Positions 1 to 56,684 of a stretch of 64,000 bases of DNA are shown here, one piece after another. The notes beneath the pieces were generated by a model, which saw nothing but the letters and a program-made list of their open reading frames with translations, was not told the DNA's origin and did no database searches. The stretch spans positions 1 through 64,000 of the forward strand of contig CALSZZ010000003.1 in NCBI GenBank assembly GCA_943841885.1, in the 5' to 3' direction. The DNA is from Candidatus Thalassarchaeaceae archaeon. Lineage in GTDB: Archaea; Thermoplasmatota; Poseidoniia; Poseidoniales; Thalassarchaeaceae. The position numbers were made by a program, and so were the translations under genes. Positions within the stretch are counted from its first letter, which is position 1. Each line of letters opens with the position of its first letter.

Positions 1-1068
1 GAAGTAAACGGACGCTCTTCCTACTCTCATAAATACTACATATTTCGAATGCTCTGTACTTATATTGAAATCATTGAATTGTAATCTAAATTGTATTTCT
101 CCTCTAGAATTAGCTCTCATATTATTCATATTAAACCGGCCTAAATCATCATCTACTGATAGATTTATGAAGTCTATTTCCAATCTAGGAGAAATATTTG
201 TTATCTTTATTAATTCCTTACTTTCAATACTTCCTCCGGCTCTAACGCCCTTTACCGTTTTGAGAATGAATGGATTATCATACTCTCCAGCACCGCTTTC
301 TATTTTTGGGTGTGCACTCGTATAGGGTGGCTCTGGACCTCTAATTTCATCATCGTTTACTCCAAATGGGTTAGCCAACCAAAGAAGTAGTAGTAATAGA
401 AGAACTAATGGGAAACAGCAGATCCATAATATCTTTGGAACATTTTCAATTCCTAATCCCTCTAGCCTGTCGCAGATTCCATTATCATCATCATCAATTG
501 GTATATTTGTACTATTTTTAGGATCAGTAGAACAATCAATCTCTCTAGTATCATTCCATCCATCATTATCATCATCATTATCTTCTACAAGATCCATTAA
601 TGCACATTCAGCTGAATTAACTGCATATTGACATGTGACTTCATCAGGCAAACCATCGCCATCCGTATCTAGCCATGCCGTAGAGTCATTAGCAAAATCA
701 TCAATTAAGTCCGCTCGGCCATCGCCATCATCATCATCATCAATCATTGCACATTTGCCATCATTATCAATGTCAGATGGATATGAATCTGAATCAAAAG
801 GAGAGGATCCACATTCAATCTCAACTAAATCAGTCCACCCATCGCCATCACTGTCTGTATCATCAATTACCTCTGGTAAAATATCAAAATCAACTGTGTA
901 TCTAAATTCATATTGCCCATTCATTGCTTTGATGGTATGAGAATATTCCAATAATAGGTGATTAAATTCTACAAGAGGAACTCCTGAAATAACACCTGTT
1001 GATTTATTTATTTCTAATCCATCTGGTAGTTCTGGAGAGACACTATAATTTAGAATATCTCCGCCAGT
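1..1068 (-). CDS. C-terminal part of the giant surface protein after the frameshift (partial, runs off window)
   Basis: Dropping one C from the C6 run at 1069-1074 lets the minus-strand reading continue from IVAP into TGGDILNYSVSPELPDGLE, completing a He_PIG module, and the frame then stays open to base 1. It encodes TSP3-like Asp-rich loops with paired cysteines (for example DSDGDGWTD and DNDGICDRLEG-like segments), then a hydrophobic helix at about bases 400-460 (ILWICCFPLVLLLLLLLWLA) and a domain of about 120 residues on the far side. This fits a type I membrane anchor with a C-terminal domain on the cytoplasmic side. There is no plausible independent start or signal peptide, so this is the end of the upstream gene, not a separate one. 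The gene's stop codon lies outside the window. Confidence 0.8.
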
Positions 1069-4000
1069 GGGGGGCAACAATAGGTATTATCGGCTGAATT
1101 CCTACTCCAACCATTGCCTCTATCTTATCATTAGGATAGAAGAATAATATTGGTGAATCATCAGTATCATCTAATGTATCACATATACTATCTGAATCCA
1201 TATCTCCTGGGAATTCATAGAATTCGAGTGGATTAGTTCCACATTCTTCTTCTCTTAGATCAGGCCAACCATCGCCATCATCGTCTTCGTCCAAAAAGTC
1301 AGGAATACCATCTCCATCAGTATCCAAGTGATATGCTATTAATGTTAAATTATATGAATCAATATAAATTGAATTACTAGCAGTTATTTCAAAAATAGTC
1401 AAGCTAAAATTATGCTCTGCTGTACCAGAAACGACCCCGTTCGTCTCATTAAAAATCAGCCCTTCAGGAATTTCTGGCAGTATACTCCAACTTGTGACAT
1501 TACCTCCAAAAATCATAGGTTCAAGATATAGATAGTCTAAGTCTACCGTTAAATTAGCATAATCATCAAGATAAATCAATTCAAAATTAGTATCATCAAT
1601 ATCTGCAATAGAAGACTTAAGTGTGATAACTACTGAGTCACTATATTGAGAATTATTTGCCCAAATTGTAAATGTTTCTAAGTCAAATTCATTAATAGAT
1701 GCCCCAGAAATTGTTCCAGTACCAACTGTTTCTAATGATCTGTAAGCAATTCCAGAATCCAAATATAACCCTTCGGGTAATTCTGGATAAACTTCCCATT
1801 CTCTGACATCTCCTCCATATACTGTTGCAATAAGTGCCGTCATAGGCTCGTTTACAAATAAGTTCTGAGATATACTAGAGTAAGTGAGGTATATTTGACT
1901 ATCATCAACATCATCTATGCCATTACAAACTCCATCTTCATCACTATCTGTTGGAATGTCTGTTTCATCTAACGTATCTGTTAAACATGTTATTTCTTCA
2001 GAATCTAACCAACCATCATTATCATCATCTGTATCATTCTCATCTGGTATTCCATCTCCATCTGAATCAAGTAATGTGGCAGATATTTCCATCACATATG
2101 AAGAATAATATTGTGTGTTATTAGCCCATATTGTAATATTATATGGCTCAAAAGCAGATATTGGCATCCCTGTTAAGGCTCCTGTTTGGGTACTGAAAGC
2201 TAGATTATTTTGTAATTCTGGGTATATTTCCCATGTTATTACATCGCCTCCAAAGACGAAGGGGTGTAATGCATTAATGGTCTGATTAACTACAAATTCA
2301 ATATTACTAACTGAATAAGATAAAAATATTTGACTATCATCTATGTTGTCTAGGCCGTCACAAACTCCATCTTCATCACTATCTGTTGGAATGTCTGTTT
2401 CATCTAACGTATCTGTTAAACATGTTATTTCTTCAGAATCTAACCAACCATCATTATCATCATCTGTATCATTCTCATCTGGTATTCCATCTCCATCTGT
2501 ATCTAATAGCGATGAGGTTATCATAAGTTCAAATGAATCTGAATATACAGAATTATTAGCCCAAATTGTATATAAAGAAGCATTGAATGTTGTTATAGAC
2601 ATGCCAGAAATAATTCCATTACTGGGATTAAGTATTATGTTGGTGGGTAAATCAGGACTTGATTCCCAACTAGTTATCGCTCCTCCAGAAGTTACTGGGA
2701 CAAGTGGGATGAAACTTTCATTCACAGTTATATTTAGATTATTTGTTAAGTATGAAATTACAATGATTGAGTCATCGGATTCATCTAGTAAATCACAAAT
2801 TCCATCATTGTCCATGTCTGAAGGTACATCAGTATGATCTAAAGGATCATTACCACATGATGCCTCATTTACATCAGTCCATCCGTCATTATCATCATCA
2901 ATATCTATTATATTTGGTACTCCATCTCCATCTGTATCTAATAATACTGAGATATTCAATTGTGCATTGGCGGATTCTCCAGCCGATGTGTTTACCCAGA
3001 TTGTATATATCGTCCCATTCATTACATTTCTAGGAATCCCCCAGATTGTTCCGTTATTCTCGCCAAATTCTAATCCATTTGGCAAATCTGGTGTAATGTT
3101 CCAGGATTCTGGCGCAGAACCAGACGTTTGTCCTGCAAATGGTTGCATTTCAGTTCCATTAACGAGTTGTAAAATTGAGGTAGGGAATGTAAGGCTGATG
3201 CCACTTCCACTGACAATCAATGTAAAGGTAGTATTTACAGATCCTCCACTATTATTTGCCCAGACTGTATAATTAACTCCTCCAGTGGTTAATAGTGGAG
3301 TTCCGGAAATACTCCCCGATTCTGTATCAAATACCAGTCCTAATGGTAGATTAGTTGGAGAAATTCCAAACGAAGCTACTGCTCCGCCTCCTAAAGTAGG
3401 AAATACATTAACCACGGTATCTCTTCCTACGGTAATTGTTCCGTTTTCGTATTCTATTGTCGCAATTTCTTCATTAATCGTGAAATTAAAATTAATGTTT
3501 CTTGTTGCGCCGTCACTACTCACTTGTAAGGTAAATATTGAACTTGTTAAATTAACTGTTGGGGTCCCCCATATCGTACCATTGGAATTGCCTAATTGTA
3601 ATCCATCTGGTAGTTCTGGAACAATTTGCCATGAAATTATACTCCCATTAATTTCTGAAGGAACTATTGGAGTTATCGGACTTCCTCTTTCAAATATAAA
3701 ATTAGTTTCATTATATGTTACAGTTGGCTTACCATTGCCAATTCCGAATGAAATATTGAAAAATATATTTCCTAATTTTGTATCATTAGCCCATATTGTA
3801 TAGTTAGCACTTGATGAATTATTTAGTGCTGTACCCGTTATTGATCCAGTAGAGGTACTAAAGCTCAACCCTTCAGGTAAATCTGGTGAAATAGCAAAAG
3901 AATCAATGTAATTAGAATCGGATTGACGGATAGCTCCCAAACCCATTACTCGGAAGTCTATTTCCTCTCCTGCAACCGGCATCTTTCCATCTATTGTGTG

Positions 4001-7000
4001 TTCAATAGTATCAATAAAGAACATCTCTCTCCAGCTGTATTGTCCTGAATAATAGACATATGTATCGTCATAAGTCAGGTATGACAATAAAGTATATGCT
4101 CTTGCATAGACGTTATCGTTTGCATCGAAACAAATCCCCTGCCACCTGAAAGAAAAGGTATATGACGGGTTATTGAAACCCGTAAAATTTTCTCTAAAAT
4201 CCGTATTGAAATTATCATCCATTCTCATTATTCCAGAATATCGACCTTCCAAATTATAATACGAGTTACCCAAAAATAACCATAATCTATCTTGAGAATC
4301 AATTTTCATTCTGTTCCCATTATGGGCCTGGTATAATGAATTGTCTAAGATTGGGCATATTTCTCTACTACTTTTTATTGTTAAATTATTTTTATCCAGT
4401 CTGAATAAGACTATTGAGTCGTAAGAACATGAAGTGTTAAACCAGTATGATGTTTCAGATATTTTTATTTCTTGGACATCAGAATTCATCCACATCGAAA
4501 TCATCAAATCTCCACCAGATAATCTTTCCATCATTAAATATGAGGCAGTCTGATCAAACAAATTAATTGGATCCTTATATGCAATCATAGATATTCCTCC
4601 AGTCCAGTTCCCAGATGCGTTTATACTGCCCATTATGGCCTGATTACAATGCGCACCTGTGGAACATCCATCTGTTGCTCCAACAGTGTGTTCATCTAGC
4701 GTATTTACTCCATATGACTTCCAAAGGAGATTCACTTCCCCATTTTCTTGAACTGCCATATCCTCCAAAATTACATGGGCAGAAGTAGAGGGAGCAATAC
4801 TTTTAACCCAAGTAAAATTTCCAGAATTATTCATTCTAACTACAAACGGGCGATAGTAATTATAATTGCTTTCACCAGGTTCTAATGTTAGTTCTCCAAA
4901 AGTTATCGCATTATTATTATTCATTGATGATGCAAATGAGCCAGCAAATGTTAATTCGCCAGTGGAATTATTTACACTTATCTGACTTTGTCCACTGGTA
5001 GTTTCGGCATATGCGTATCCAACTCTCCAATAAGTTGTTGATGGGTCGCTATACATATCTTTTGCCCATCTTACTTCGCCAGAATTATCCAGTGATATTA
5101 CAAATGCTGCACTTCTTGATGGCAAATCCCATTCAGAACCTTCGAAGTCAATAATTCCGCTATTTCTATGCCCAATTACATATGAATTTCCTAAATCATC
5201 TAATATTAATTCAGTTGAGGTATAACATCCGTAGTTACAATCTATAACTTTAGCCCATGCCCATGTTGAATTAGCATATCTTTTTGCTATAATAAGGTCA
5301 TTAGAATTACAAGATGGAACTGTTAGACCATCATATGCAAATTGTACATTCGCATAACAGGCTCCGTAATAATATAGGTTTCCTTCCGAATCATATGCAT
5401 TAAACATGTAGCCTGTACCATGAGTGCTTCTGTGTCCATAATAATCACCAAATCCAGAAAATACAGATGGTTTCGAGGTAATATAAATTGTTAAAGAAAG
5501 AGGATAGGAAGAAGTACTACTATTGGAATAAATCGTGTAAGATGTTCCAGTTAAATCAGAAACTGTGGGCGTTCCAGAAATAACTCCTGTCGAATTATTT
5601 AATTCTAATCCTGCAGGAAGTGAAGGAGCCCAAACCTCTACTAATTCTTGTCCTCTAAATGTAGGCGTCACACTATTCTCAATTTCATTTGTAAATACTA
5701 TACGCTCATTACCATAGTCTATTACTGCAAATTGTAAATTATCGCATATACCATCAGTATTTCTATCAGTTGGAAAATAACTGTATTCTGGCATATCCAT
5801 TGGGCTTTTGTGGTGCATGATAGCATAATTATTATCATCGCCTTTAGACATTAAGAATATATCATCAAACTCATTGAATTTCAGCGTTAACTTTCCATAT
5901 CTATATCCAGTCTGCCAAGTTTGAGAGGAAATATATACTTCTGAGTGAACCCAATTAGATCCTTCAAGGACAGAAAGCATCAAAGTTTTAGAGGATTGAT
6001 TTACCCATGCTAAATGTGGAACACCAGTTGAATTCGATGCAATCACAACTCCTTCATTACCTCCAGTAGATTCTGCAATCACTTCATTACTCCATGTAGT
6101 TCCATCATAACTTGCTACTACTAAATCAGTATTGTTATACATTGCCGCATAAATTACTCCATCGCTTGATAAATGTAAATCAGCATGATAATCTTGAGCA
6201 TCCGAATATGAAGTAGTGCTGTAGGATGATGTACTTTGATTCCTATTAAGAACTAAAATAGGGTCACTCCATTCAACAGTAGATTCTCCGGACATGGAAT
6301 TTCCAAGATCTGCATAAGAATGGTAAAATCCGACAGGCAGGTCAGAATTTCTTGCATTTATATCCATTTGTAATATGTGCAATCTTCCATCAGGGCCAAA
6401 AATATATTGGCTTCCTAATGCTGTTATTGGTGTATCGAAATAGAATGTATCAGCAGCATTACCCTCATTTCCTTCAAGATAACTACCCATCATTTCATTC
6501 TGGTCAGGATTAAAGAATACCATTATTCTACTATCTTGACTTATTGCCAATTCTCCTGTATTTGTTGATGAACTCACAGTAGATCCGTAAAACATGTTAT
6601 AATTGTAATGGGGAGTTCCATTTTTATTCATTCCTTTATATATATAATCTTCATTAGAAATATATAATATTCCATTTTGTTCCTCAACATCAAATTTATC
6701 GTATCTATTATTCTGATATAATTCTGCACTAGGTGACTGAATAGAGCCATCATGTCTTTGTAAACTATTTACTATGTAATCATTATAATAGGTTGCATAT
6801 AAATCAATTCCATAATCACCTATTATGAAGTCGTAACCCCCGTAGGAACTACCATCGTAATTTGAATTCCATGCAGTCGTATGTTGCCAAGTATCAGAAT
6901 AGCCTACATCATGACATTGTCTTTGATATGAGTTCTCCCAACCATTTCCATTTATGTCAGTATCTAGATTATCGCATATCCCATCTCCATCATAATCTGA

Positions 7001-10000
7001 AGGAGTGGACAAAGAGCTCCATGATAAATACCCACAAGCCTCTTCTTCTATGTCTGACCATGTTTCCGCTGTATCTTGTTCTGCTGTCTTGACTGTGGCA
7101 TCATCGTCATCTGTATCCACACTAGTCCCTAATCCATCTCCATCGGCATCTATCCAATCTCTTACGTCCAAAGGTAAATCATCATTAATATCTATATATC
7201 CATCATTATCATCGTCATTATCCCAAATATCTATCCATCCATCTCCATCAGTATCGGGCATTACGAGATTAATGTCAGTAATTTTCATGTTACTGCCCAT
7301 TTCATCTGTACCGTCTCCAATCTGGTCGGTATTTCCGATTCCAAGTTCACCATTGTTATTTTGACCCCAACATCTGACTGAATCATCAAATATAATGGCA
7401 CAAGATAATCTATGCCCACTTGTAACCGACTTAATATAACTGGACGGCAACGTTGGTGAGATCAAACTATCTCCCATTTCTCCTGGCCCATCTCCAATCT
7501 GGGTGCTATTTCCAATTCCAAGTTGGCCCTGTCCATTGTGTCCCCAACATTTTAAACCTTCATTATCTAAAATCAAGCATGTATGATATCCTCCCACACC
7601 TATCTGCTTTGCAGTTCTTCCTGAACCTAGGTCAACACTTGGTAAATTATCTCCCATTTCTCCTGGCCCATCTCCAATCTGGGTGCTATTTCCAATTCCA
7701 AGTTGGCCCTGTCCATTATATCCCCAACATTTTACATCTCTAGTATTTGTAATAGCACAATAATTGAAGAGGCCAGAATCCAAAGATATTGCAGTTATGT
7801 TATCTCCCAAATCTGTTATGGCTAGATTATTACCCATTTCACCCGCACTTTCTCCAATTTGGATGGTATTTCCGATTCCAAGTTGGCCATAACTATTTCT
7901 CCCCCAACATTTTACCAATCCACTGTCTAATATGACGCAAGTACTATGAAACCCAGCAACAATATCTACAGCAGTCCTTCCATATCCTAAATCAACACTT
8001 AGTAAATTATCTCCCATTTCTCCTAGCCCATCTCCAATTTGGTTGGTATTTCCGATTCCAAGTTGGCCATATGTACCTTGTCCCCAACATTTTACATCTC
8101 CTAAATTCGTTATCACGCATGTATGGTGCATTCCACTTGATATATGCGTAGCAGATACATTTGCTCCTAAATCAACCGTGGGATGACTATCTCCCCACAT
8201 ACTCCATAAGTTATTGCCAATATTAGTATTATTTTCAATTCCAAGTTGGCCCTGTCCATTATATCCCCAACATTTTACACTATCATTATCTAAAATTGCG
8301 CATGTATGATACAATCCCAAAGATATCTTCTTTGCAGTTCTATTATTTCCAAGAGGTACGAATGCCAAATTATCTCCCATTTCATTTACATTATCGCCCA
8401 TAGTTGTAGTATTTCCAATTCCAAGTTGGCCATAGTTATTTAATCCCCAACATTTTACATATCCTACATATGATAATGCACAACTATGTCCACCACTCCA
8501 CTTATTCAACACTACTTCCATCACATCATTTGGACCCGTTGCATGATATTCACTACCATCAACAATTACTAAATTAGTTGATTCCCCAGTCTTTACCATA
8601 TTTGTTAAACTTGGCTCACCTAAATTACCCGAAGAAGAACCAGAACCAATCCGGCCATCTTCAGCATGGCCCCAACACATTACATATCTTCCGTCTGTTG
8701 ATAAATTTCTATATATGGAACAAGAAAATCCTGAATCTGAAGATTCAGACTCCTCTATTGATACAGCAACTTCAATTGGAATATATCCAGATATGGGAGT
8801 TACGCTCACTGGAGATAATGACCCAGCTCCAAAATTATCATTGCCAAGTTGCCCGAAAGTCCCTATTCCCCAACATTTAGTTGCATCATCAATGATGGCG
8901 CATCCATGTGTATCTCCAATATCAATTGCAGTGACTGGCATTGATCCACTATCTAATGAAGTCCCTGTATGATGATATACTGAATTGCCAGTTAATAGAG
9001 GACTGTAGTACCCTGCTGTAGCAAATTCTAAATTATCAGATTCTCCATCATAGAATGCCAAGAATTTATAACCATCTTCGATGATAATTTCAACGCCTGA
9101 GTTATCTGTAATGCCTATTCCAGCATCATATTGTATTGTTATTACCCATTCAGAACCACTCCATGTTGCCATTTCTAAATTTCCATTGCTAGAGTCTCTA
9201 TATGCAATACTCGGCTTATCTAGATTATCAAATGCTATTGAAGTATGACTACTGCTGCTGCCTACTGTATCTACCACAGAAATAGTCCAAGAAGACCCAT
9301 CATATTTTGCATAATTTATGTTGTTATTGGTATCATCATAATACGATATATGAGGATAGCCATTACTATCAAGTTCAATATCAGAATATAATCCAGTTTT
9401 AGTTGAACTATCATCAATTACTGTAGTTTCCCATAGTCCGGTTGTTCTATCAATATACGAGTATTGTAATTTTCCAGTACTATCACTTCCGTTATAATAA
9501 GACAGATGTACTAAATTATCACTTACCGTTGAACCTAACTGAAAGTGATAATCGCCAATTGATGAAATATTGTAAATGGTATCAATTCCGGAATAGTAAA
9601 CTGAACTTTCTACTTTTGATGAAGATAAATTATAATAAATAAAATGTATATTCCCAAACTCATCTTGTACAATAGAAGGCATATATCCAACATTATTACC
9701 CCATTCTATTGTATTCTTCTCCCATGATGAAGAACTACCACAAGTGTTTGGACAGTATGCATACTCTAAATCATCTTGTCCGGCATCATAATGGGCAATA
9801 TGTGGATTATTATCAGAATCTACCATAATATCAACCCTTCTTCCAATACTACCCGTACTAGTATCGACATCGTATGTAATGTCCCAATTAGCATTAGAAT
9901 CACACGTAGAAGAACAATAAGCATAATGCAGGTCTGCACCGCTTCTGTCATAATATGCAATATGCAATGAATCATTACTATCGACTGTGAGAGAAGCACT

Positions 10001-13000
10001 TCTTTCAAGTCCACCAGCTGAAGATGCTACTTTTTCAGTATTCCAATATCCTGATGGCCAGTTTTGAATAGTATTATTCGCTATATACAAACTATCATCC
10101 CAGTCATCAAAGTAGATTATGAAAACTGAATCTGTACTATTTATCGCTATTGAAATATCTCTCCCTGTGAGGGTATAACTTGTGAAGGTAGATGCATCTC
10201 TTTCTTGAGTCTTCACATCTCTTATTTCCCATCCACTTCCATTATAGAAAGTATGTCTTACAAAATATTCATTGGCATTGTTATCATTAGCTGCCCTTAC
10301 TTTATATGCAATATGTGGTTTATTATCTGAGTCTATCGCAATTGAAGTTTCACCAATATCGCCCTGATATATACCCCAATCATTGTCAATTTGACTTATC
10401 TCCCATCCCGTACCATTGAACTTAGCATACTTTAATTCATCATTTGTATCATCTTTATATGAAATATGAGGCATTTCATTATTATCTAATGCGATTGAAG
10501 GATATTTGCCAACTGCTCCTTCTGAGTCTATGGTATGTGTTTTCCAAAAACCTCCTCCTTCCTTTGTGGCATAAACCAAATTTGAGTTAGTTTGATCCCA
10601 ATATACTGCATGCAAGATTCCTGAACTATCTATTTCCATTGATGAATAATATCCTCCATCTTCAAGAACAGTTCGATCTACATCTCCAGTTTGTCGGGGT
10701 ATGATATGTTTCAATTTCGAATCATTACTGTCAATATAAATTGCATTCAGATTATTATATTGGTCATAGTGTAGAGATGTACCTGGTTCAGATCCTGATA
10801 AATCTCCTGTTTCTACTAAATCATACTTATGCCAGATTGTATCGGTATAAACTGTCGTATATCTGACTAATCTGTGATTATTATTGTTATCTACATATGC
10901 AACATAGACAGTTCCATCAGAATCAACATAAGAATCGGGCCAGTTACTATGCTTTCCTGAATTGTCTTCAACATCATACTTATACCATATTCCTCCATTA
11001 TTATAGATGACTACTACATTATCTGTTCCTGTAAAGTCTACTGTGGTGATTCTGGGATTATTTAGACTGTCAATCCCAAGCCTAATCGGAGTATTAGAAC
11101 TGGTCTGAATGCTGAACGTATTTACTTCTTCTATATTCCAATTAGATCCATCATTAAAAGCGTATTTTATAGAATTACCGTTTTCTCCGTAGTATGCTAT
11201 TTGGGTTAAATCATAAGAATCAATTTGTAGGCTAGCATATATTCCTGTAGTTCCAGTAGCAGGATCATCGACCTTTTCAAAGATCCAACTTGAACCATCC
11301 CATATTGCTAATTCTAAATTTGTACCTGTGACATTATAGTATGCAATTCTAGGGTAATCATTACTATCTAAGCCAATTGAGCCATGCCGCCCTCTGTCAT
11401 TGCCATCATCTGTTGTTACAGTAGTATCAATCCATGCCGCTCCGTCATAGTAAGAATAACCTAAAGTATCATTTTTATCATCATAATATGCTATATGAGG
11501 GTGATCATTTGAATCTATTTCCAAGGAAGTTTCTAATTTACCAACCCAAGTACTCAATGCACCTGAAAGTGTAATGTCTCTAAGTTGGGTTTTATTCCAA
11601 GAAGTTCCATTGTATGTGGCATACATCAAATACAAAATATCATTGGACGGATTAGAATCCCAAATAAAATAACTTAGATGCAAATTCCCGACCGAATCAA
11701 TTTCCAAATCTTTAATTCCCCAACCGGCGTAATATCCACTAGCTCCTGACTCAATAATAATCGGTGTTGACCATTCTGTCCCGTTAAAGAAGGTATATTT
11801 CATATCCTTATTATCTTGATGATAATAAACTACATGTTTATTCCCATTTGGGCTAACTACAGTAGTCGCAAAATAATTATTAGTTGCAGTAACTGGTGTT
11901 GATTCGGAACTATTAGTTAGTCCTTGAAAATGAACCAAAGTATCATTAGTTAAGTCGTATGCTATTAAATTGGTCCTATTAGTTGAATCTAAATTTACTG
12001 TAACTCCTCTGCCAATATCATTACTACCTGAATATACTGAATTAGTATTCCATACACTTCCATCATATATCGCATAACCCAAATCTCCATTTAGTGATTC
12101 ATAGTAAGCTACACTCCATCTATTTTCAGAATACATCAGTGCGGGGTACTTTCCATCTGAAATGACTATATTCGAACTTGGATTAACGTACTCAGTTTGA
12201 GAAGATTTTCCCCAGCAAATAGATTCTAAATTATCCATAATTACACAAGTAGAATCACTACCTGCATTGATGCTATCAACATTATAACTATCCCAAACAG
12301 AAGAAACAAGACTTCTCGATGATGAAAGGTCTACAAGTTGGGGCTCATAACTATCTAGGCCACCGAATCTATGGTTTCCCAATACATTGGAAAATCTTCC
12401 GCCATTGTAACCCCAACAATAAGTTTCATCACTTCCATTAACATTTGTGTTTTTACTAATACACGAATGGCGATTTCCTAGCGCTATTTCGGATATTGAG
12501 GCAGTATTTGTTAATGCCAATTTCACAGGAATATTTTGATCTTCGACAGATCCAAATGCATAATTCTTAGTAGATAAATCGTCTATTCTCAATTGACATC
12601 TATAGCAATATACTTGAAATCTTAAAGAACGACTTTCATCAGAATAATCTTCAGGTACTGTCATAGTGATTGTTGTCTTACCTTCATCAAAGGTTAACCA
12701 TGAATTATCATTCCACCTAGTTGATGAATTATCGAATATTGTTCCTAGTAAAACATCACCAGACCAAACTTTAACCCATTCGCTAGTTTGACCATTGTTC
12801 CCAAAATCACGAGCATCAAATTCAAATTGTATCTTCGATCCAGGAACTAGGTTTAGTGCATATTCTGGTAATTGATATGAAGTATCCTTCCAACCATTGT
12901 AATAATCTCTTTTCAATATTTTATTCCCATCAGATGTTTCAATTGACCAGTAACCATTTCCAGTCCATCCCAATTGAGTGACATCATCAAAATTTTCATT

Positions 13001-16000
13001 GACATCATTCTGAACGTTTACATTAGTTACTTGCCCAAGCCTTTCATCGTCACTTTCACCCCAACAATAAACTCCTCCATTAATTGTTTTGATGCAATTA
13101 TGTGACGTTCCAACAGCTAAATCTCTGACTAACATGTCATTTGGTAGGACTACATATCCTGGCTCTTCATGAGCAGAAAATGTACCTCTACCTAATTCTC
13201 CTGCAGTATTCCTTCCCCAGCAAACAAGGGTGAAATCTTCTCCAATTGAACATGCATGTCTAGCACCAGTATCTATTGTAGATGCTTTGAATCCTTCAGG
13301 AAAATCTACCATTACAGCATATTCACTACTTGTTCCTACTGAAGTATTTCCAAGTTGTCCTTCTGAATTATCTCCCCAACATGCAACTGAATTATTTGAT
13401 AATAGTGAACATCCAAAATTTTCACCTAATGCCAATGCATTAGATTCCCCCAAACTCAATTCACCAGTTTGTGCACCATCAAATTGCTCACAAATGCCAT
13501 CTTGATCTGTATCGATAGGATAATTTGTACTATCTTTGAAATCTGTACCGCAATTTTCTTCTTCAGCCCTTGTCCATCCATCACCATCAATATCTAGATT
13601 AAGGCCAGCACTAGTCATCCCCTTTTGTCGTAATAAGTAAAATGGATTTGGGTCATCCGGATAATATGCAAATCCCCACATTTGTCCAAGATCCGTAATT
13701 TCTATTCCTGTCCATCCAGCATCTCCAATATTTTTTACTTCATTATAATACCATTGGTTATTCTTTTTATGAAGTGTAAATTCTCCGTCTGGGGTGCCTG
13801 CAAGTATCACTACTGTCTTATCTGGTCCTGTTGCAATGTCTACGACTCCAGTACTATATTCTGCTAATATTTCTTCAGTTGTCCATGAAGATACTGAAGT
13901 ACATGTTGTTTCACAATAAGAATATTGCAATCCATTCGTCATATTATTATGTACGATATGAATTGATTTATCCACTCCAATGTCAATCGATAAAGATGCA
14001 TTGGAACTCGATATATCTCCAAAATTACTGATTGTTTCATAATTCCAATTACTGATTGACGAATAACACAGATTTGAACAAGTCGAAACATGCATGGCAG
14101 TATGAAAATTCACAGCGGTATATGTAATCCAAATCTCGTCATCATATGAGATGTCACTATCTAGTCCATAACCTCCCGATGTTATCACATTAGAACCAAC
14201 TTCAGTCCAAGATGTAGGACTTGTACAATCTGATGATTCTAAACAAGTAATAATTATCATCTCTGTTGAAGTTAAAGTAAAAAGATAGAAATTACCGAAA
14301 CTATCAATTTCTGCACTTAAAGTGGTGCCTTTCCAATCTGAATCAAGTTCTACAGAGGACCACGAGCTACCTGCTTTAGTTTGGTAAACAGGCCCATCAC
14401 CTTCCATGAAAAAAATATGTGGATCATCGTCTGAGTCGAGTAAAATACTTGTATCATATATTTCCGTATCCCACACAATTACATCTTCCAAAGTCCACTT
14501 ATTATTATCAAATATTCCAAATTTTAATTTATTTGATTCATCATCCACATATGCCATACTGGCACAATTTTCTGATGTTAAGGTAGTAGAAACTTTGTTA
14601 CCTACATTACTAGATGTACTATCTAATGCCACCTTTTCTATACTAGTTCCTTCTGCCTGTGTATCGCAGTCAATATCGAAAACAGACATTGGCATAAAGA
14701 GTTGGACATATTCTAAATTATCTCCCATTTCTCCAGTCTCATCGCCCGTTGCACCAGTCTTTCCCAATCCTGTTCTGCCGTCTTCTCCAGTTCCCCAGCA
14801 TTTGACTTGTGCATTATTTAGTATTGCACAACTAAAACCATTTCCAGATTGAATAGAAATTGCTGTTAAACCTGAACCGAGGGAAACTGGGTCCAACTCA
14901 TTACCCATTTCATTATCATCATCTCCTCTTGCATAACCATCTTCATATCCCAGTTGCCCAAATGCATTATTTCCCCAACATTTTAATTGAGCGTTTGTTA
15001 GTATGGCGCAAACATGAGAGTCTCCAGCATCTATGGAATCAGCACCAAGGTTAGTTCCCAAATTAACAATATTTAGATCATCTCCGATTTCATTAGATTC
15101 GTCTCCTTCATCACCCGTAGATCCTGTTCCTAATCTCCCATTAGCTCCATCTCCCCAACAAGCAACACTAGAATCATCAAGAATTGCACAAGTAAAATCT
15201 TCGCCTGCAGTAATTGCAGTTGCAGTTCTAGAAGTAGGTAAATCGACTAATGCCAAATTAGAATTCATTTCATTAGATTCATCTCCAATGGTATCAGTGT
15301 TACCAATTCCTAACTGTCCAGCAGAATTATCCCCCCAGCATCCTATTTCACCATCATTCCAAAGTACGCATGTATGGTCATGGCCCAATGCAATACTTGC
15401 TATATCTCCTCTCTCTGGCAAATCTACATGAGGTAATTCACCTCCTACTAAGTCTCCAGAATCATCTCCTATTGTATTAGTATTACCTAGTCCAAGTTGC
15501 CCTATTGAATTGCCTCCCCAACATACCAAAGAATCACTAGTGCCATTATTGACAACGGCGCAAGCATGTTCAGCACCTGCTTCTACAGACGTGGCGTTCC
15601 AAGATCCAATATCTACAGGAACAATATTCGAACCCATTTCACGATATCCGTCTCCTATTGCTCCCGATCCAGACAACCCTGCAGCATTGCCTAACTTTTC
15701 ATTCTCCCCCCAGCATCTTATTGCACTGTCATTAGTTAATGCACAAGAAAATGTTTCACCAAGTGCAATATCCAAGAATGTCAGATCTTCTCCAACATCT
15801 GTAAAATATAAGTAACGCCCCATTTCAAGTTCTTCATCGCCATAATCTTCTATATTTCCATGTCCCGTTTTGCCTAACGTACCGTCACCCCAACATTTCA
15901 TTTTTTGGTTATTTCCTATGGCACATGCCTGGGCATCACCAAGCGATATAATAGTCACATCGGCATTATTTGCGAAAAAAATATTATTATTATCTGGTAA

Positions 16001-16266: not shown

Positions 16267-16920
16267 ATGGAGAAAGAAGATGACTCGAATTTACGATATA
16301 TGCAAATTCACATATCTACAGATTCAGGAAGAAATTTACCAGGTTCTAAATTGATTAATTTTTTTTCTAAAGTAGAATTTCTATCCACAATTGAAAAAAA
16401 ATCAAATGGATTAATCTGTTATGCTTTATTGAAATTTGATAATTTAGATGCTCTATCAAATACCTATGAAGGGTTAGAAATAATCAAAATAATATCAAAA
16501 AATAATAATTCAGCATTAACCAAAATTCACCTCATGGGGCCAGTTGCACGTTTATTTTCTGATGATTTAGATTGTTGGTGGGTTACCCCATCTCACCTTA
16601 CAAGTTCTGGTATGACATTATCCTTACAGGGTACTAAAAATAGTTTTCAAATATTGAAAAATAAGTTCTCACAATTAGTAGGTAATGGTTTTACGGTGAA
16701 AATTGGCAAAGAAAGTTTGAGAAAATCTTTTTCATTAAAAATATTGAATTTAAAGCAAAAAATAGTTTTGGATTATGCAATAAAAATGGGATATTACAAT
16801 AGGCCAAGAGAATGTACACAAAGAGAAATTGCAAAAAAACTCAATCTAAAACAGTCAACTGTATGCGAGCATTTACAATTAGCAGAATCTAAAATTTTTA
16901 ATAGTATGGAATTTGAATAA
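16267..16920 (+). CDS. Bat-type HTH_10 transcriptional regulator
   Basis: 217 residues. The last 55 or so form the HTH_10 (bacterio-opsin activator type) domain: LKQKIVLDYAIKMGYYNRP followed by TQREIAKKLNLKQSTVCEHL, matching the family pattern of a 'LGYF..PR' helix and an 'SxSTxxEHL' recognition helix. The N-terminal 150 residues resemble the poorly conserved sensor part of such archaeal proteins and show no clear cofactor motif. No membrane segment is seen, so it should be a cytoplasmic DNA-binding protein. It is divergent from the giant surface gene, so regulation of that gene is plausible but unproven. The ATG lies just after a short AT-rich promoter region with no strong Shine-Dalgarno sequence, which fits a short-leader archaeal mRNA. 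Confidence 0.75.
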   Translation: MEKEDDSNLRYMQIHISTDSGRNLPGSKLINFFSKVEFLSTIEKKSNGLICYALLKFDNLDALSNTYEGLEIIKIISKNNNSALTKIHLMGPVARLFSDDLDCWWVTPSHLTSSGMTLSLQGTKNSFQILKNKFSQLVGNGFTVKIGKESLRKSFSLKILNLKQKIVLDYAIKMGYYNRPRECTQREIAKKLNLKQSTVCEHLQLAESKIFNSMEFE

Positions 16921-25954: not shown

Positions 25955-26212
25955 TCAGAGTTTTATGCCAGAAATTTCTTTATTCAATTCTTTACAAAGA
26001 TCCTTGAAAACTTTTTCTGCCTTTTTACCCTTCTCTGCACGTATAAATATCTCTGGATCATCTAAATCAGGATGATTTTGAAAGTAATTAGCATATTCTA
26101 CATCTTTACTACCATTAAGTCTAGATCTGAACATTTGTAACGTTGTATGGCTCTCTCCACTGATTCTAACTCTCAGTTCACGTCCTTGGTTTTCTAGTAC
26201 TTTGATTGGCAT
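25955..26212 (-). CDS. rpo11: DNA-directed RNA polymerase subunit Rpo11 (RpoL)
   Basis: 85 residues. The family pattern IKVLENQGRELRVRISGESH-TTLQMFRSRL, followed by an NHPDLDDPEIFIRAEKGKK segment, matches archaeal subunit L, the homologue of eukaryotic RPB11 and the bacterial alpha N-terminal domain. It dimerises with Rpo3 to nucleate RNA polymerase assembly. It is divergent from the RND transporter gene and heads the rpo11-truD pair. Confidence 0.92.
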   Translation of the reverse strand: MPIKVLENQGRELRVRISGESHTTLQMFRSRLNGSKDVEYANYFQNHPDLDDPEIFIRAEKGKKAEKVFKDLCKELNKEISGIKL

Positions 26213-26261
26213 AAGACGGGCTTTCGACCTGCCTTCCCTTTTTGAGGCCTTTCATATCTTT

Positions 26262-28895
26262 ATGTCCAAACTTAGATTCAAATTCACCCTAAGTTATACA
26301 TCAGCAGCCTCAGCGGCGGGTATGGCAGTTGCTGACCAACCGTCTGAAAAATTCTCTGAACTTTTCGAAAAAATGGCCCTCCCTATAGTTGTAATTAGTG
26401 TTTTAGCAACAATTTTTCTAGCATCATTCCTATCTCCTTTGCCAAATTTTTCTACAGATTTATCCTCCTTCTCACCCGATACAGAATATGATGATGCCAA
26501 ATTAACTATTTATGATGAAATAACCCAATCAGGAGAACTTATTTATATCAATATTGAAGCAAGTCAGGATGACTCTAGTGTACTTGAAATTGGTGCATTA
26601 AAACAACTTAATAATGATTTTTTCCTTATTCAGAATTATTCTAATTCTAATGGGAATTTTATTAAATCTCAACTTAATGCTGCAAATATTTTGGAAAGAG
26701 TCATCGATCAAAGTAATTATTCAGGATCTTTAAATGACTTTGATGATTGGCAGGATTTACTTAATTCAGTTTTTGAAAATAGTGAAAATTGTGATTCGTC
26801 CTTTTCAAATGATGAAGAAAAAGTAGCATATGCCTCATTTGCATCTTCTGTAATGTTACATCAAGATTTTAATTTTGAATCCCTTTGCGATTGGCTTCTC
26901 GATGGTTCAGGGAATCCTTTACCACATGCTTCTAGTACGCTATGGATTATTGAAATGAATGGAAATTTAGAAGAAGATGAGAATTTAAAATATGCCGATG
27001 ATATAAGAGATATGCTATACCTTGATGATAGTGATTCTATTACTTCTCCTCTAAAGTATGGTGTAATTTCTGATTCATTGATTAGTAACGATATTAATGA
27101 ATCTACACTTGATAATCTAATATATTTATTCTTTTTAGCAATTTTAATCGTTGTTTTACTTCTAGCTGTTACATTTAGATCTTTTATGATGGTAGCTGCT
27201 CCACTTCTAGGTCTTTCTGCATCTTTAGTATGGACATATGGAATAATATCAATGCTGGGATTTGGATTTACCATATTGGAAGTAGCAGTAGCTCCAGTTG
27301 TATTAGGCTTAGGAATAGATTACTCTATTCATCTACAAACAGGATATGATAAAGCTAGATCAAAAACAGATAGTGCGGCTAAAGCTTGGATTCAATCTTT
27401 TATGAAAATAAGAATTGCACTATCTCTCGCGGTAGTAACTACAGTATTTGCTTTCTTAGCAAACTCTTTTTCTCCATTGCCGCCACTACAGGCATTTGGA
27501 TTCACACTAGCTTTAGGCGTAGTTTCAGCATTTATTGCGAGTACAGTTACTGTCGGAGCAGTTCATGTAGTTGTTGAGAAAATGTCGGGGGAGACTCCTT
27601 CAAGAGCGATTAAATTAGACTATATCGCAGATATTGCTACTAATTTTCAAAGAAATAATACTGCCAGAGTTCTTCTGATGGTCGTTCTAATAACAACTGG
27701 TTCTGTAGTTATTGCCCAAAATGGATTAGATACTAGCTTTGAATTAACTGATTTTTTATCTGAAGATGAGATGGAAATAATGCAAGTAAGAAATGACATT
27801 TATGATTCTTATGAAATTGACGCTCTAAAGTCAGTACATATTCTAATTGAGCCCACTGAAAATAATCCATACTTTGATGACGAAAGTAGAATTTTAACTT
27901 CATTGAGAGGTTTCGATCAATCTCTTCCACGGATTCCATCTGTAGTTTCTACACAGGTTTCAGGATCTAGTAATGAATGGCCCTCATATGATAGTCTCTA
28001 TCTAATTCTGAAGGATATGCTAATCCAAAATAATCAATTTGGTGAAAGGCATAATCTGGAATTATTCGGGAATGAAATAGCAACTACTGAAAATTTTGAG
28101 CATGGAGATTTGACAAGTGCTGTTATTGAATTATTATCTAATGACAGTATAGGAGATCAATTAAGAGGCCTATCTTGGGCAGATAGAACTGAACTTTATG
28201 TGGCATTAGATGAATCCAATTCCGCAATAAAATTTCTATCAATAAGAGTAGACGTTGAGGCAGAGTCAAGTACTGAAGTAGGGAATATTGCTAAAGAATT
28301 CGGAATAGAATTACAAATTATCGAAGAAGATATTGGAGGCAATGCATATGTCGATGGTAATCTAATAGTTCTTTCTAACGTTCTTTCAGGATTAATCTCC
28401 TCCATTCTATATTCTACCGCAATTAGCCTTGCAGTCTCCCTAGCAGTTTTAGTAATTCTTACAAGAAGTTTTGGTCAATCCTTAGTCGTCATTTTACCTG
28501 TTGGTTTAGCCGGTTCATGGGTTGTCGGCTCAATGGCAGTATTGGGAATCAATTGGAACGTATTGACTATAATGATAACAGCATTAACTATAGGTCTTGG
28601 TATCGATTACTCAATACATGTATGGAGGAGATTTGAAGAAAATAGACGAGAAGGAATGAAAATTTGGCCTGCAATGAGGGATATGTATGTGACCACCGGA
28701 GCATCATTATTGATATCCGCAGGTACTACAATATGCGGTTTCGCAGTTTTACTCTTATCTCCGATTCCTGTAATAAGAGATTTTGGTATTGTGAGTTCAA
28801 TTTCGGTTGCCTTTTCATTAATTTTAGCATTATTAGTTCTCCCTGGTTTATTAGCAGCTGAGGTGAGAACAAGTAACGGTAATGGAAATAATTAA
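26262..28895 (+). CDS. RND superfamily (MMPL/HAE3-like) membrane exporter
   Basis: About 877 residues. It has the duplicated RND plan: one membrane helix, a large exported loop and a bundle of helices, twice. The conserved VLGLGIDYSIHLQ and IGLGIDYSIHVWRRFEENR motifs mark helix 4 of each half, with Asp residues expected to carry protons. The N-terminal helix is at about residues 40-60. Known relatives export lipids, hopanoids or hydrophobic compounds; the substrate here is unknown. I chose the ATG at 26262 because an earlier in-frame ATG at 26202 lies inside rpo11 and would remove the divergent promoter. It converges with rlmE (4 bp overlap). Confidence 0.85.
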   Translation: MSKLRFKFTLSYTSAASAAGMAVADQPSEKFSELFEKMALPIVVISVLATIFLASFLSPLPNFSTDLSSFSPDTEYDDAKLTIYDEITQSGELIYINIEASQDDSSVLEIGALKQLNNDFFLIQNYSNSNGNFIKSQLNAANILERVIDQSNYSGSLNDFDDWQDLLNSVFENSENCDSSFSNDEEKVAYASFASSVMLHQDFNFESLCDWLLDGSGNPLPHASSTLWIIEMNGNLEEDENLKYADDIRDMLYLDDSDSITSPLKYGVISDSLISNDINESTLDNLIYLFFLAILIVVLLLAVTFRSFMMVAAPLLGLSASLVWTYGIISMLGFGFTILEVAVAPVVLGLGIDYSIHLQTGYDKARSKTDSAAKAWIQSFMKIRIALSLAVVTTVFAFLANSFSPLPPLQAFGFTLALGVVSAFIASTVTVGAVHVVVEKMSGETPSRAIKLDYIADIATNFQRNNTARVLLMVVLITTGSVVIAQNGLDTSFELTDFLSEDEMEIMQVRNDIYDSYEIDALKSVHILIEPTENNPYFDDESRILTSLRGFDQSLPRIPSVVSTQVSGSSNEWPSYDSLYLILKDMLIQNNQFGERHNLELFGNEIATTENFEHGDLTSAVIELLSNDSIGDQLRGLSWADRTELYVALDESNSAIKFLSIRVDVEAESSTEVGNIAKEFGIELQIIEEDIGGNAYVDGNLIVLSNVLSGLISSILYSTAISLAVSLAVLVILTRSFGQSLVVILPVGLAGSWVVGSMAVLGINWNVLTIMITALTIGLGIDYSIHVWRRFEENRREGMKIWPAMRDMYVTTGASLLISAGTTICGFAVLLLSPIPVIRDFGIVSSISVAFSLILALLVLPGLLAAEVRTSNGNGNN

Positions 28896-31517: not shown

Positions 31518-32105
31518 TCAATTATTCGCTATATCCCATTGCCCTTCTTCATTTTGATTTCTTAAGGCATATAATATTACAATTGTAGCAATCATTCCAA
31601 CATGTACAGCTGTACAATAAGGGCAGATATGTGGAGCCCCATCTACTAAGAATAATTCTACAATAACTAGCCAGGCTACTCCAACTAATCCTGGTAAAGA
31701 CATCAGAAAAGCGATACTTAACCATACATTTGCCATTTTATCTCTAGGTCCAAAGAAAAGAGAAACAGAAAGATAGAGTAGGATTGAGAATGATAACATT
31801 CCTATCATTCCCCATGAAATACCAAAAAATTCTGAATATGTCGGATCACCAATTACGCTTCCACATTGAACCATGCCATCTGCAGCGCAGAAATTTGTAC
31901 CTCCTGTAGCCGCTATCTCTCTATGGATAACTTCTGTCCACATCGAGGTTAGTAATGTGCCAGTCTCAACAATTATTAGTCCAAGAAGCATACGCCTTGT
32001 GTCATTAAGTCCAATATTCATATTTCTACCCAGAGGAGTTGCAATAACTATTCCAGAAATTATTATTACACTAAATATTGCTAACGGTCCATATTCTCCT
32101 AGCAT
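31518..32105 (-). CDS. VKOR family membrane disulfide-generating protein
   Basis: 195 residues from the ATG at 32105, which lies 1 bp after the stop of the thioredoxin gene; a longer form starting at 32192 would overlap that gene by 86 bp. There are five or so membrane helices. The VKOR cysteines are present: the loop pair Cys73 and Cys81 (FCAADGMVQCGSVIG) and the membrane CPYC pair Cys161/Cys164, with the conserved FGISWGMIGM motif following the loop. VKOR homologues in prokaryotes replace DsbB: they pass electrons from an exported thioredoxin-like partner to quinone. The adjacent thioredoxin gene is the obvious partner. Confidence 0.85.
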   Translation of the reverse strand: MLGEYGPLAIFSVIIISGIVIATPLGRNMNIGLNDTRRMLLGLIIVETGTLLTSMWTEVIHREIAATGGTNFCAADGMVQCGSVIGDPTYSEFFGISWGMIGMLSFSILLYLSVSLFFGPRDKMANVWLSIAFLMSLPGLVGVAWLVIVELFLVDGAPHICPYCTAVHVGMIATIVILYALRNQNEEGQWDIANN

Positions 32106-32106
32106 T

Positions 32107-32814
32107 TTAATCCCCCAAAAACATTGAAAGAGCATTATCGATACTTTGGCCATCATCGGTATGCTGTGCCTGATTCCATGCAACTTCTCCATTTGGCTTG
32201 AGTATTAGGTGGAATGGAGTTCCTCCTACATCCCAAGATTGCATTGAATCTCCATTTAAATCGTCGACATATTGCCAATTATGTACCTCTCCATTCCTGC
32301 TAGCACAGTTATTTCTACCTGAATTACATCCATCTCCGTCATTCAGGTCTGTCCCAAAATTTGTCTTATCCTTGAAAGCTGTAATTTCTTCTTTAGAACT
32401 TTCATGCCCACTGATGCTCAACTCAACAACCACAGATAAAAAATCTGCTTTTTCACTATATTGATTGTGTCTATCACTCATATCTTCTCCTTCATTGTAA
32501 CAATAAGGACAATCTGTATCTAATACTTGAATGTAAATCCACTTACCATTACTCCCTTCGGACCAACCCCTGTCAAACATTGAATGCAAATCGAAATCTG
32601 TCCATTCTCCATTCTCATAAACTTCACCGCCTATGTTGGGTATTATTTCACCTTCTGCTGGGCCTATTTTGTAATCTGATGCCATACTGATAAAGATTAT
32701 GATTACTACTGATATCACTCCAGAAGTTACCAAGAATGATGTCATTCTTGAATCTCCGTTGTCAACGATGACTTGCGCTTGTTGCTTTCTTCTCCTTCTA
32801 GACATATCTCTCAT
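32107..32814 (-). CDS. Membrane-anchored thioredoxin-like oxidoreductase, partner of VKOR
   Basis: 235 residues. A basic N-terminus (MSRRRRKQQ) precedes one membrane helix at about 25-45, placing the rest outside the cell. The thioredoxin fold carries VLDTDCPYCYNEG with redox cysteines at 102 and 105 and a cis-Pro loop GGTPFHLIL; an insertion holds another Cys pair (GCNSGRNNCASRNG). The CPYC active site is oxidising in character, like glutaredoxin or DsbA (CPHC). Its stop is directly adjacent to the VKOR start, so the two form an operon for disulfide bond formation in exported proteins. The start could also be three codons later. Confidence 0.8.
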   Translation of the reverse strand: MRDMSRRRRKQQAQVIVDNGDSRMTSFLVTSGVISVVIIIFISMASDYKIGPAEGEIIPNIGGEVYENGEWTDFDLHSMFDRGWSEGSNGKWIYIQVLDTDCPYCYNEGEDMSDRHNQYSEKADFLSVVVELSISGHESSKEEITAFKDKTNFGTDLNDGDGCNSGRNNCASRNGEVHNWQYVDDLNGDSMQSWDVGGTPFHLILKPNGEVAWNQAQHTDDGQSIDNALSMFLGD

Positions 32815-35900: not shown

Positions 35901-36282
35901 GATTGGTACAATAGTATTTGGGATTGGTGTTGATGATTCTATTCATATTGTGGATAGAATAAAAGATGAAAGAGAAACGCCTTCTGGAATAGTTAAGTCC
36001 ATTTCTAGAACTGGACATACAATTTTCGAAACTACTGCAACAACTTGTGCCGGGCTATCCGCAGGTCTCTTTGTGGCGATACCTGGTTTACAAAATTTCT
36101 TTATTCTAATGATGTTATTGTTAGTTTTAGCACTATTAACTAGTTCAATACTATTACCAACTATGATTGTTGCATACAATGAGTTTAAATCTAGAATAAC
36201 TGGTAATGGAGCCTGGTTGGATTATGAAAGTAGTGGAACTTTAGCCCTAGAAACTACTGTAGATGCTGTGGTGTTTGAATAA
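32962..36282 (+). CDS. Large RND superfamily (MMPL/HAE3-like) membrane protein
   Basis: 1,106 residues, larger than the 897-codon RND protein upstream. An acidic N-terminal cytoplasmic segment of about 75 residues precedes the first helix (SIIAILLLSTILIG). The first half has an exported loop with many paired cysteines and then helices with LVGLGVDYALHLTNRIEENR; the second half repeats this with FGIGVDDSIHIVDRIKDERE. Three additional helices between the halves (IWPSAILISLSLYIFL and following) match the RND plan. The substrate is unknown; lipid or surface-polymer export is possible. Paired Cys in both exported loops (for example CDTNNDG and CVSALDC) would need oxidation outside the cell. Confidence 0.82.
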   Translation: MLVPDSFDEDELDDEAVFWQNFFNRLQPFRNSYYKIKTTISSTFLGEIYDTLGQLYDDISDTIGAISNRVTELTYSTILRSPGSIIAILLLSTILIGKDALDFEHQINGDVEIYLPDGADSTILLENVREQWATDIVILYIQTNNAASGSEKGIENITDVEMLSQISRIEGDDNNVQLSGYQRGLDYDKSDRGTNDGVIWILSPAQMIKEANSSNYRFSCAAEKYGLPTGNQDECTFASLNPFEGYSIPQGDDAQERIDRYVENSGELLNRPGCRSSLVCDTNNDGIWDTGVVVMGIIFDMSNTDIDERPDPKNPQEELRDHKAFLMYVEKLTRNDCNLPDNYDLLRCRTYENPTSTMDNERLDTICRNLPGEPPYEGFTQNNDKFCRNAITITGLTPVLHDVSDAIYLELVDTMLPLSLLFVALTMFILHRNPKVVIICGLPIMMSLAVTFGTTVILDIMLTPMIISAGPILVGLGVDYALHLTNRIEENRSQLIAEHHELSWKAQRDGLQTKEIDPWNSYISLTATVRSAKTTGHAIFLSALTTIVGFSVLTWTEIVPIEPMRTVGTTLLLGIASTFILSMLMVPALVHILRYRRGEIDFELTSKQIWPSAILISLSLYIFLTRFLDYVSNLNNMDSDNAFLLSFSLCLVLLFSFLPKLWDKIGEIPLKATILILLVAGAVTIGGISIFSEELGKDITGSSEEVPPGLESYESLREYSIEFKGGQTNMFIVDASNYVNPSDSAPIRDLSILDAIEEAQVNNLDNIRNTSTISLVNILKAIHVDVEFEGFELYDQSLWELLHDECWDESNNPLRPDCWAYSISNREDIINVVFDTLSPEIRSMLMNADTGIGETKTLVYVNQPYINLGAAASLRDSIDSYLTGDGCVSALDCDTLGVNGVSNSLLTGGLPVSLDINKGIHDAQSDSTIATMLILLFIMSLLFRSPRLSIFTMIAVGAVVLWQPILMKLGSVNVNVFTAMIGTIVFGIGVDDSIHIVDRIKDERETPSGIVKSISRTGHTIFETTATTCAGLSAGLFVAIPGLQNFFILMMLLLVLALLTSSILLPTMIVAYNEFKSRITGNGAWLDYESSGTLALETTVDAVVFE

Positions 36283-40742: not shown

Positions 40743-40830
40743 TCGCGAGCCTCCGTGACGTTACTTCAATTTGTATTTGACGGGACATAATTGCGGTACC
40801 ATCAAGGCGTACATAATTATCGGAACGGTC

Positions 40831-56680: not shown

Positions 56681-56684
56681 TACA

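Follow-up and report, generated by a model that had tools for sequence, protein, structure and literature searches.

Cysteine pairs in every RCC1-type blade of a giant, probably surface-exposed protein from a Thalassarchaeaceae archaeon

The stretch of DNA analysed here (the window) comprises 64,000 nucleotides of a Candidatus Thalassarchaeaceae archaeon genome (assembly GCA_943841885.1, contig CALSZZ010000003.1, positions 1 to 64,000) and carries at its left end a giant open reading frame (ORF), P0001, read on the reverse strand from 16150 to 1043 and encoding 5035 amino acids (aa). The translation holds 21 RCC1-type blades, each with a pair of cysteines, followed by He_PIG domains and D-rich stretches. 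It is considered quite probable that the gene encodes an exported, membrane-held protein in which three RCC1-type rings would be stapled blade by blade by disulfides, the second ring being split, and in which these rings would form a head for recognition or attachment. The closest homologous segments are from metagenome-assembled genomes (MAGs) titled Euryarchaeota UBA557 (61% identity) and Ca. Thalassarchaeaceae (62%; best segment in each case).

Cysteine pairs and predicted fold of the blades

The motif C-x(8-14)-C-W-G is found in all 21 RCC1-type blades of P0001, and a C..C[WY]G search, which also admitted tyrosine after the second cysteine, gave CWG every time. The offset between the two cysteines is 10 residues in 17 of the 21 blades and 9, 13, 15, and 15 in the others. 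The pattern C.{8,16}C[WY]G occurs 21 times in P0001, whereas 1,000 shuffled versions of the protein gave 0.092 occurrences on average and at most 2. Moreover, no cysteine lies outside the pairs in the 1,255 residues that were delimited as RCC1 regions, and the pairs account for 42 of the 79 cysteines of P0001. The remaining 37 mostly form close pairs of their own (CxxxC in several YYD-type repeats; 20 residues apart in D-rich stretches), and a few of the cysteines outside the blades look unpaired (e.g., 3079, 3469, and 4007). A preliminary description of this DNA had placed RCC1-type blades with a cysteine pair here, and their presence is confirmed over the claimed span, approximately 7253-15973. 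That almost every blade has the pair was an understatement, as all 21 blades found have it. As for the proposed form, H-x-C-A...C-W-G, the C...CWG portion holds throughout, but the H is often replaced by F, S, N, or Q.

Hidden Markov models (HMMs) of the Pfam families PF00415 (RCC1) and PF13540 (RCC1_2), a comparison that had been proposed as a check, scored over their cut-offs in all three clusters of P0001; the cysteine pairs are grouped in keeping with the claim that at least three clusters occur in one protein. WD40_RLD scored over its cut-off of 150 bits in the first (172.8) and third (204.9) pieces and under it in the second (98). An AlphaFold model of aa 2395-2975 was based on alignment A1 of 46 sequences, for which 45 of the 75 non-redundant homologous segments were supplied. 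The block-mean predicted local distance difference test score (pLDDT) is 87-98 over model residues 151-570, a region with seven copies of one strand pattern, and is 37-78 in residues 1-150, which hold the two preceding blades. In all seven confident blades, the paired cysteines are each the third residue of two successive strands (in one example, cysteines 163 and 173 of strands 161-166 and 171-175), and because they share this position they should, according to the model, face each other or be within about one residue of doing so. The earlier expectation that the two cysteines flank a beta-hairpin thus agrees with the predicted structure, which places them on the two successive strands of a single hairpin in all 7 confident blades. 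With the HMMs over cut-off and a predicted seven-bladed fold, P0001 belongs to the RCC1-like repeat superfamily.

The fold match of the propeller 3 model was to UVR8 at Z 50.1, with a root-mean-square deviation of 2.0 over 364 residues; HERC2, HERC1, RPGR, RCC1, and BLIP-II (Z 25.6) were also matched, including with Foldseek. The propellers of UVR8, HERC, RPGR, RCC1, and BLIP-II are the best solved relatives by both sequence and fold, and the eukaryotic members among UVR8, HERC, RPGR, and RCC1 have intracellular roles. At the first cysteine place UVR8 carries V, L, A, or M, and at the second it carries S, G, or A. Further fold matches were the ectodomains of CRINKLY4 (7a0k at Z 24.8 and 7a0j at Z 24.6), of which 7a0j was also found by sequence profile (E 3.9e-20). 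The claim that solved RCC1-like structures lack the cysteines is supported by the UVR8 alignments and by what the accessible part of a paper on CRINKLY4 states about its RCC1 and BLIP-II templates (PMC4617170).

Occurrence of the pair across RCC1-type blades

The pair was surveyed in 217 loci and the window, the loci being the best matches (at most 30 per search). The blade model used was built from the blades of the window with both cysteine positions blanked and was rebuilt once from its matches; 19 of the 21 window blades were scored with the rebuilt model and 21 with the first. There were 1,424 distinct matches of at least 8 bits, from which 64 with a gap at either position were excluded to leave 1,360 scored blades; 524 duplicates and 348 weaker matches are likewise outside this count. 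A total of 1,028 blades had both cysteines, 331 had neither, none had a single one, and 1 had a masked letter. Apart from one masked blade, the counts for both, neither, and single were 998, 324, and 0 at 12 bits or more and 965, 315, and 0 at 16 bits or more. Inspection of 40 of the 64 gapped matches revealed that any lone cysteine had a visible upstream partner or that a contig edge or masked letters truncated the blade. An alignment-free count of 947 gave 700 with both, 230 with neither, and 17 discordant, and all 17 are explained by a cysteine elsewhere (frequently immediately ahead of the H), masked letters, incomplete N-terminal blades, or unrelated frames. In the 324 cysteine-free blades, the commonest letters at the two positions are L (202) and A (190). 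ORFs with at least three blades comprise 110 that are purely with the pair, 48 that are purely without it, and 2 that are mixed; in both mixed ORFs, single blades lack the two cysteines together.

Such both-or-neither occurrence is what a disulfide predicts and is taken as strong evidence for one; together with the predicted fold, it makes each pair very probably a disulfide staple. Outside the cell, the two cysteines on neighbouring strands would bond, and the bond would staple the hairpin in each of the 21 blades of P0001, occupying the place where cysteine-free prokaryotic relatives mostly have L and A. The both-or-neither rule, which covers more than 1,300 blades, offers a simple sequence test by which stapled and probably exported RCC1 propellers can be told from unstapled ones.

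The same observations bear on two other uses of so many cysteines, namely a metal site or a thiol/disulfide redox sensor in place of a permanent staple, and bonds between blades or molecules that would cross-link a fibre or surface layer. A two-cysteine metal or redox site would likewise be lost as a pair, yet no further conserved ligand is present in the blade consensus, in which the other near-invariant positions of cysteine-majority ORFs are W, G, and L. The H before the first cysteine is 74% conserved but reaches 78% in the cysteine-free class, and the pair replaces L and A, which are a packing pair in that class; a metal or redox role is accordingly regarded as improbable. Cross-linking, which would suit a large, probably exported protein with many cysteines and the preliminary idea of a fibre, is held to be more improbable still. 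In all 7 modelled blades the partner cysteine occupies the corresponding position on the following strand, and the both-or-neither pattern holds per blade, also in the two mixed ORFs, where individual blades lack both cysteines.

It should be noted how these loci were drawn. Loci L039-L073 were found with peptide patterns, several of which contain cysteine, and are therefore biased. Loci drawn with PF00415 are not biased towards cysteine, since this model scores 11 bits better when the cysteines of a window segment are changed to alanine. RCC1_2 scores 33 bits lower without the cysteines, so the pair is already partly built into this public model. Among the PF00415 draws at 12 bits or more, blades with and without the pair number 114 and 90 in Actinomycetota (the phylum of a Brooklawnia MAG), 14 and 126 in Pseudomonadota (the phylum of a Rhodanobacteraceae MAG), 69 and 96 in Chloroflexi (likewise the phylum of a MAG), and 165 and 5 in the archaeon's own phylum. 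PF00415 itself was detected in 26 of 145 genomes of that phylum (24 of them in the same order) and in 31 of 198 Actinomycetota, 16 of 200 Pseudomonadota, and 20 of 121 Chloroflexi genomes drawn, and RCC1_2 was detected in 28 of 40 near relatives. The pair had been presented as an archaeal peculiarity; this does not hold, as it is common in bacterial loci of several phyla and has been published for plant CRINKLY4 in the accessible part of that report (PMC4617170). An archaeal speciality is thus ruled out, and the staple design of CRINKLY4 is instead widespread in bacteria and archaea.

A probable split in the second ring and the predicted propellers inserted there

The cysteine pairs of P0001 fall into groups of 7, 3, 2, and 9. 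Steps from pair to pair within rings are 52-80 residues, with one of 211 at a smaller inserted domain; the step from propeller 1 to propeller 2 is 473 residues and that from blade 12 to blade 13 is 1,115. Propeller 1 (14711..15973, ends approximate; all parts of the protein are on the reverse strand) has seven blades with first cysteines at aa 76, 136, 197, 261, 321, 381, and 441 and is followed by a region (13868..14593; aa 520-761) with three YYD-type repeats. Propeller 2 begins with five blades (12176..13459; first cysteines at aa 914, 967, 1019, 1230, and 1302). The smaller domain (12521..13009, ends by eye) is inserted between blades 3 and 4 and has Pfam matches to BACON and GEVED, both below cut-off. 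Between blades 5 and 6 lies a long insertion of 1,074 aa (8954..12175) with 21 YYD-type repeats, and the final two blades (8561..8953; first cysteines at aa 2417 and 2477) come after it. Propeller 3 (7253..8539), the confident part of the model, again has seven blades (first cysteines at aa 2557, 2617, 2678, 2738, 2798, 2858, and 2917).

The blade count is likely three times seven, with the second ring of the window opened between blades 5 and 6 (5+2), because orthologues L227 and L229 keep this ring contiguous. L227, from another genus of the same family, has three blades, a domain of about 200 aa, and four blades, and then seven further blades, one of which was read by eye as CAG; L229, from another family of the order, has no long insertion, and two of its blades were read by eye as CMG. 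The layout of the window recurs in L223, L224, and L226 and, from the second group on, in L230, where the ORF starts at a contig edge; in all four and in the window the second ring is interrupted by about 1,050-1,080 aa. The layout is also compatible with L225, in which one motif was missed, and with L231, which meets a contig end. A different partition would make blades 13-21 one larger propeller and blades 8-12 a five-bladed unit, with no split ring. The nine blades are indeed consecutive in the window, and blades 8-12 were not part of the sequence modelled (aa 2395-2975). This partition is nevertheless thought to have little chance of being correct, since the confident model covers only the last seven blades (its first 150 residues being those with block means of 37-78) and since L227, and likewise L229, have seven contiguous blades and then seven more, counting those read by eye as CAG or CMG. 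A nine-bladed third propeller as such was rejected on the strength of the model and the orthologues.

Multiples of seven are again seen elsewhere in the same genome, where intact RCC1 ORFs (L219, L220, and L221) have 14 (7+7), 7, and 7 cysteine pairs in the stretches read. A further RCC1 region of this genome (L218, G000:C1:57000-62000) is divided among five short ORFs (101-246 aa), as would be seen in a broken or poorly assembled gene, and a stop codon falls inside a match at C1:525009.

The 21 repeats of the long insertion are mostly 44-64 aa apart. A model of it from an alignment of seven sequences (A2; mean pLDDT 78.9) has two parts that match complete seven-bladed propellers: residues 89-447 match CylK (Z 33), and residues 495-865 match BP39L, PLL lectins, and virginiamycin B lyase (Z 30-32). 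These proteins are the top fold matches of the insertion (Z 30-33), but with only 9-12% identity the likeness is one of fold alone. No Pfam or NCBIfam family matched the insertion over cut-off, and a search of PHROGs gave a weak match to one family of unknown function and nothing else. By arithmetic, the repeats outside the two matched propellers number 2+1+4 = 7. The view that other propeller types are present in the same protein is consistent with the YYD-type repeats and the modelled fold of the insertion. An arrangement of beads on a string is right insofar as several propellers occur in one protein; it is wrong insofar as one RCC1 ring is split by other repeats and the C-terminal part consists of He_PIG domains and D-rich stretches. 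Tentatively, and with somewhat more doubt than confidence, the head may be doubly nested, with the stapled RCC1 ring (5+2) holding a different type of ring, in turn divided 2+1+4 by two complete seven-bladed rings that it encloses, and prokaryotic RCC1 propellers may form stapled and unstapled classes that switch as whole propellers without single-cysteine intermediates. What sets the giant protein apart from prokaryotic RCC1/RCC1_2 repeat proteins is its split ring, along with its array of other repeats. Together with the orthologues that lack the insertion, the split ring would offer a naturally occurring comparison of a propeller before and after other propellers were inserted into it.

Stalk, membrane anchor, and candidate folding enzymes

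Towards the C-terminus, the protein continues as a stalk-like part (1046..5656) with He_PIG Ig-like domains identified by Pfam and D-rich, TSP3-like stretches recognized by eye, for which family matches were below cut-off; within it, an SBBP-propeller-like stretch at approximately 4997-5314 was also matched below cut-off. The giant ORF is broken at a run of six C (1069-1074), and the sequence continues in another frame as P0002 (1..1080, reverse strand; 360 aa, running off the contig end) with He_PIG domains, D-rich stretches, a transmembrane segment, and the start of a tail. An error in sequencing or assembly probably accounts for the break, because orthologue L224 is one ORF of 5510 aa across this place and is 86% identical over the 360 residues; a real frameshift is the alternative. 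L224 has hydrophobic segments at 15 and 5244, and P0001 has an N-terminal hydrophobic stretch at aa 27-45 that by eye resembles that of L224. The architecture is thus a nested propeller head, an Ig-like and D-rich stalk, and, as seen in the close orthologue, a membrane anchor. Two adjacent cysteines (WICC, WLCC) occur in the transmembrane segment of each of the three orthologues seen, namely P0002 (approximately aa 217-235), L227, and L224. The protein is probably surface-exposed: this marine Group II archaeon would export it, a C-terminal segment would anchor it in the membrane, and it would display a head of three seven-bladed RCC1-type propellers, the second a single ring split 5+2 by the inserted block of other propellers. 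On the Ig-like stalk, stapled rings could act as sturdy binding platforms, most likely to recognize or attach to particles, glycans, or other cells.

Two neighbouring genes in the window encode putative enzymes for making the bonds. A VKOR-family protein (31518..32192, reverse strand) matches PF07884 at 57.7 bits against a cut-off of 27.5. The family is characterized by four conserved cysteines, a CxxC among them, according to the accessible part of a published account (PMC4555120), and the translation here has a CPYC motif and two further cysteines nearby, in accordance with that rule. Its neighbour (32107..32814, reverse strand), found by its position beside the VKOR gene, has an N-terminal hydrophobic segment and a CPYC motif, and matches AhpC-TSA below cut-off (21.1 against 26 bits). 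The former is a candidate disulfide-forming enzyme and the latter a candidate partner, for which a thioredoxin-like assignment is weak. Of 26 relatives, 22 have a VKOR match at E <= 0.001, which exceeds the cut-off in 20, and 33 of 40 have the CPYC protein; the two genes are side by side on the same strand in 20 of the 22 VKOR-bearing relatives, the exceptions being G015 and G031. DsbA-type PF13462 had no match in the 26 genomes and was positive in 9 of 14 control genomes. From this gene arrangement, the two are likely an oxidative-folding pair of this archaeal order and would provide a concrete candidate pathway for these uncultured archaea. The bonds of the giant protein would probably be made by this pair, and by another route in genomes that lack it.

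Several observations weigh against this overall reading. A hydropathy scan at a threshold of 1.9 found no segment in the window's own ORF, and with the frame break near 1071 the window lacks an anchor in the same ORF as the head. Three genomes (G014, G018, and G024) have a giant cysteine-paired protein and neither a VKOR nor a CPYC gene at E <= 0.001, and 7 relatives without RCC1_2 carry VKOR; a VKOR link specific to RCC1 proteins is ruled out by these two sets of genomes. Further, the blade counts represent a strong pattern and not a probability, as blades share descent and the trials are not independent. In a tree of 103 ORFs with the cysteines blanked, 6 changes separate the pure states (8 when the mixed ORFs are counted), and the starred branches alone force 4 changes for the cysteine group and 2 for the cysteine-free group. 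A few switches could therefore underlie much of the two-class pattern, the tree being a quick build in which 42 of 100 inner branches were left open and a warning about long branches was raised.

Comparison with known RCC1-like proteins indicates that neither the staple nor multi-domain use at the surface is new in kind. The ectodomain of CRINKLY4/ACR4 (7a0j, 7a0k) has the same design as propellers 1 and 3, with seven C...CWG repeats. The accessible part of the CRINKLY4 report describes a C(X10)CWG core in the seven repeats of these receptors, which are distant RCC1 relatives, and cysteines that are close together on neighbouring antiparallel strands, likely bonded, and absent in the template structures (PMC4617170). 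As counted here, the spacing in 17 of 21 blades is CX9CWG, and repeats are about 60 aa long compared to about 39 aa in CRINKLY4. CRINKLY4, a receptor kinase of plants, has a TNFR-like Cys-rich domain and an intracellular kinase domain, neither of which was found in the giant protein: pieces of P0001 had no Pfam match to the former at E <= 0.1, and no kinase was matched in window positions 1-1080 or in the tail of L224 (271 aa to the contig end). The giant protein is not a member of the CRINKLY4 family, though its ectodomain works alike. Cell-wall-anchored proteins of honeybee bifidobacteria carry 2-4 domains that average seven RCC1 repeats each, as given in the accessible part of the source (PMC4449606), and resemble the giant protein in the repeat, in having about seven per domain, in the several domains, and in anchoring. 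Among the literature matches listed, no paper was found on RCC1 proteins of Poseidoniales or on this cysteine pair in prokaryotes, a weak negative given that most subscription papers were out of reach.

An HTH_10 regulator-like gene (16267-16920, forward strand) is divergent from the giant gene. Other genes on the forward strand of the window include those for two MMPL-family transporter-like proteins (26202-28895 and 32962-36282), a 2020-aa protein with subtilase and PPC domains (40771-46833), and a second giant ORF (56628-63998; 2457 aa) that runs off the window end and had no Pfam match at E <= 0.001.

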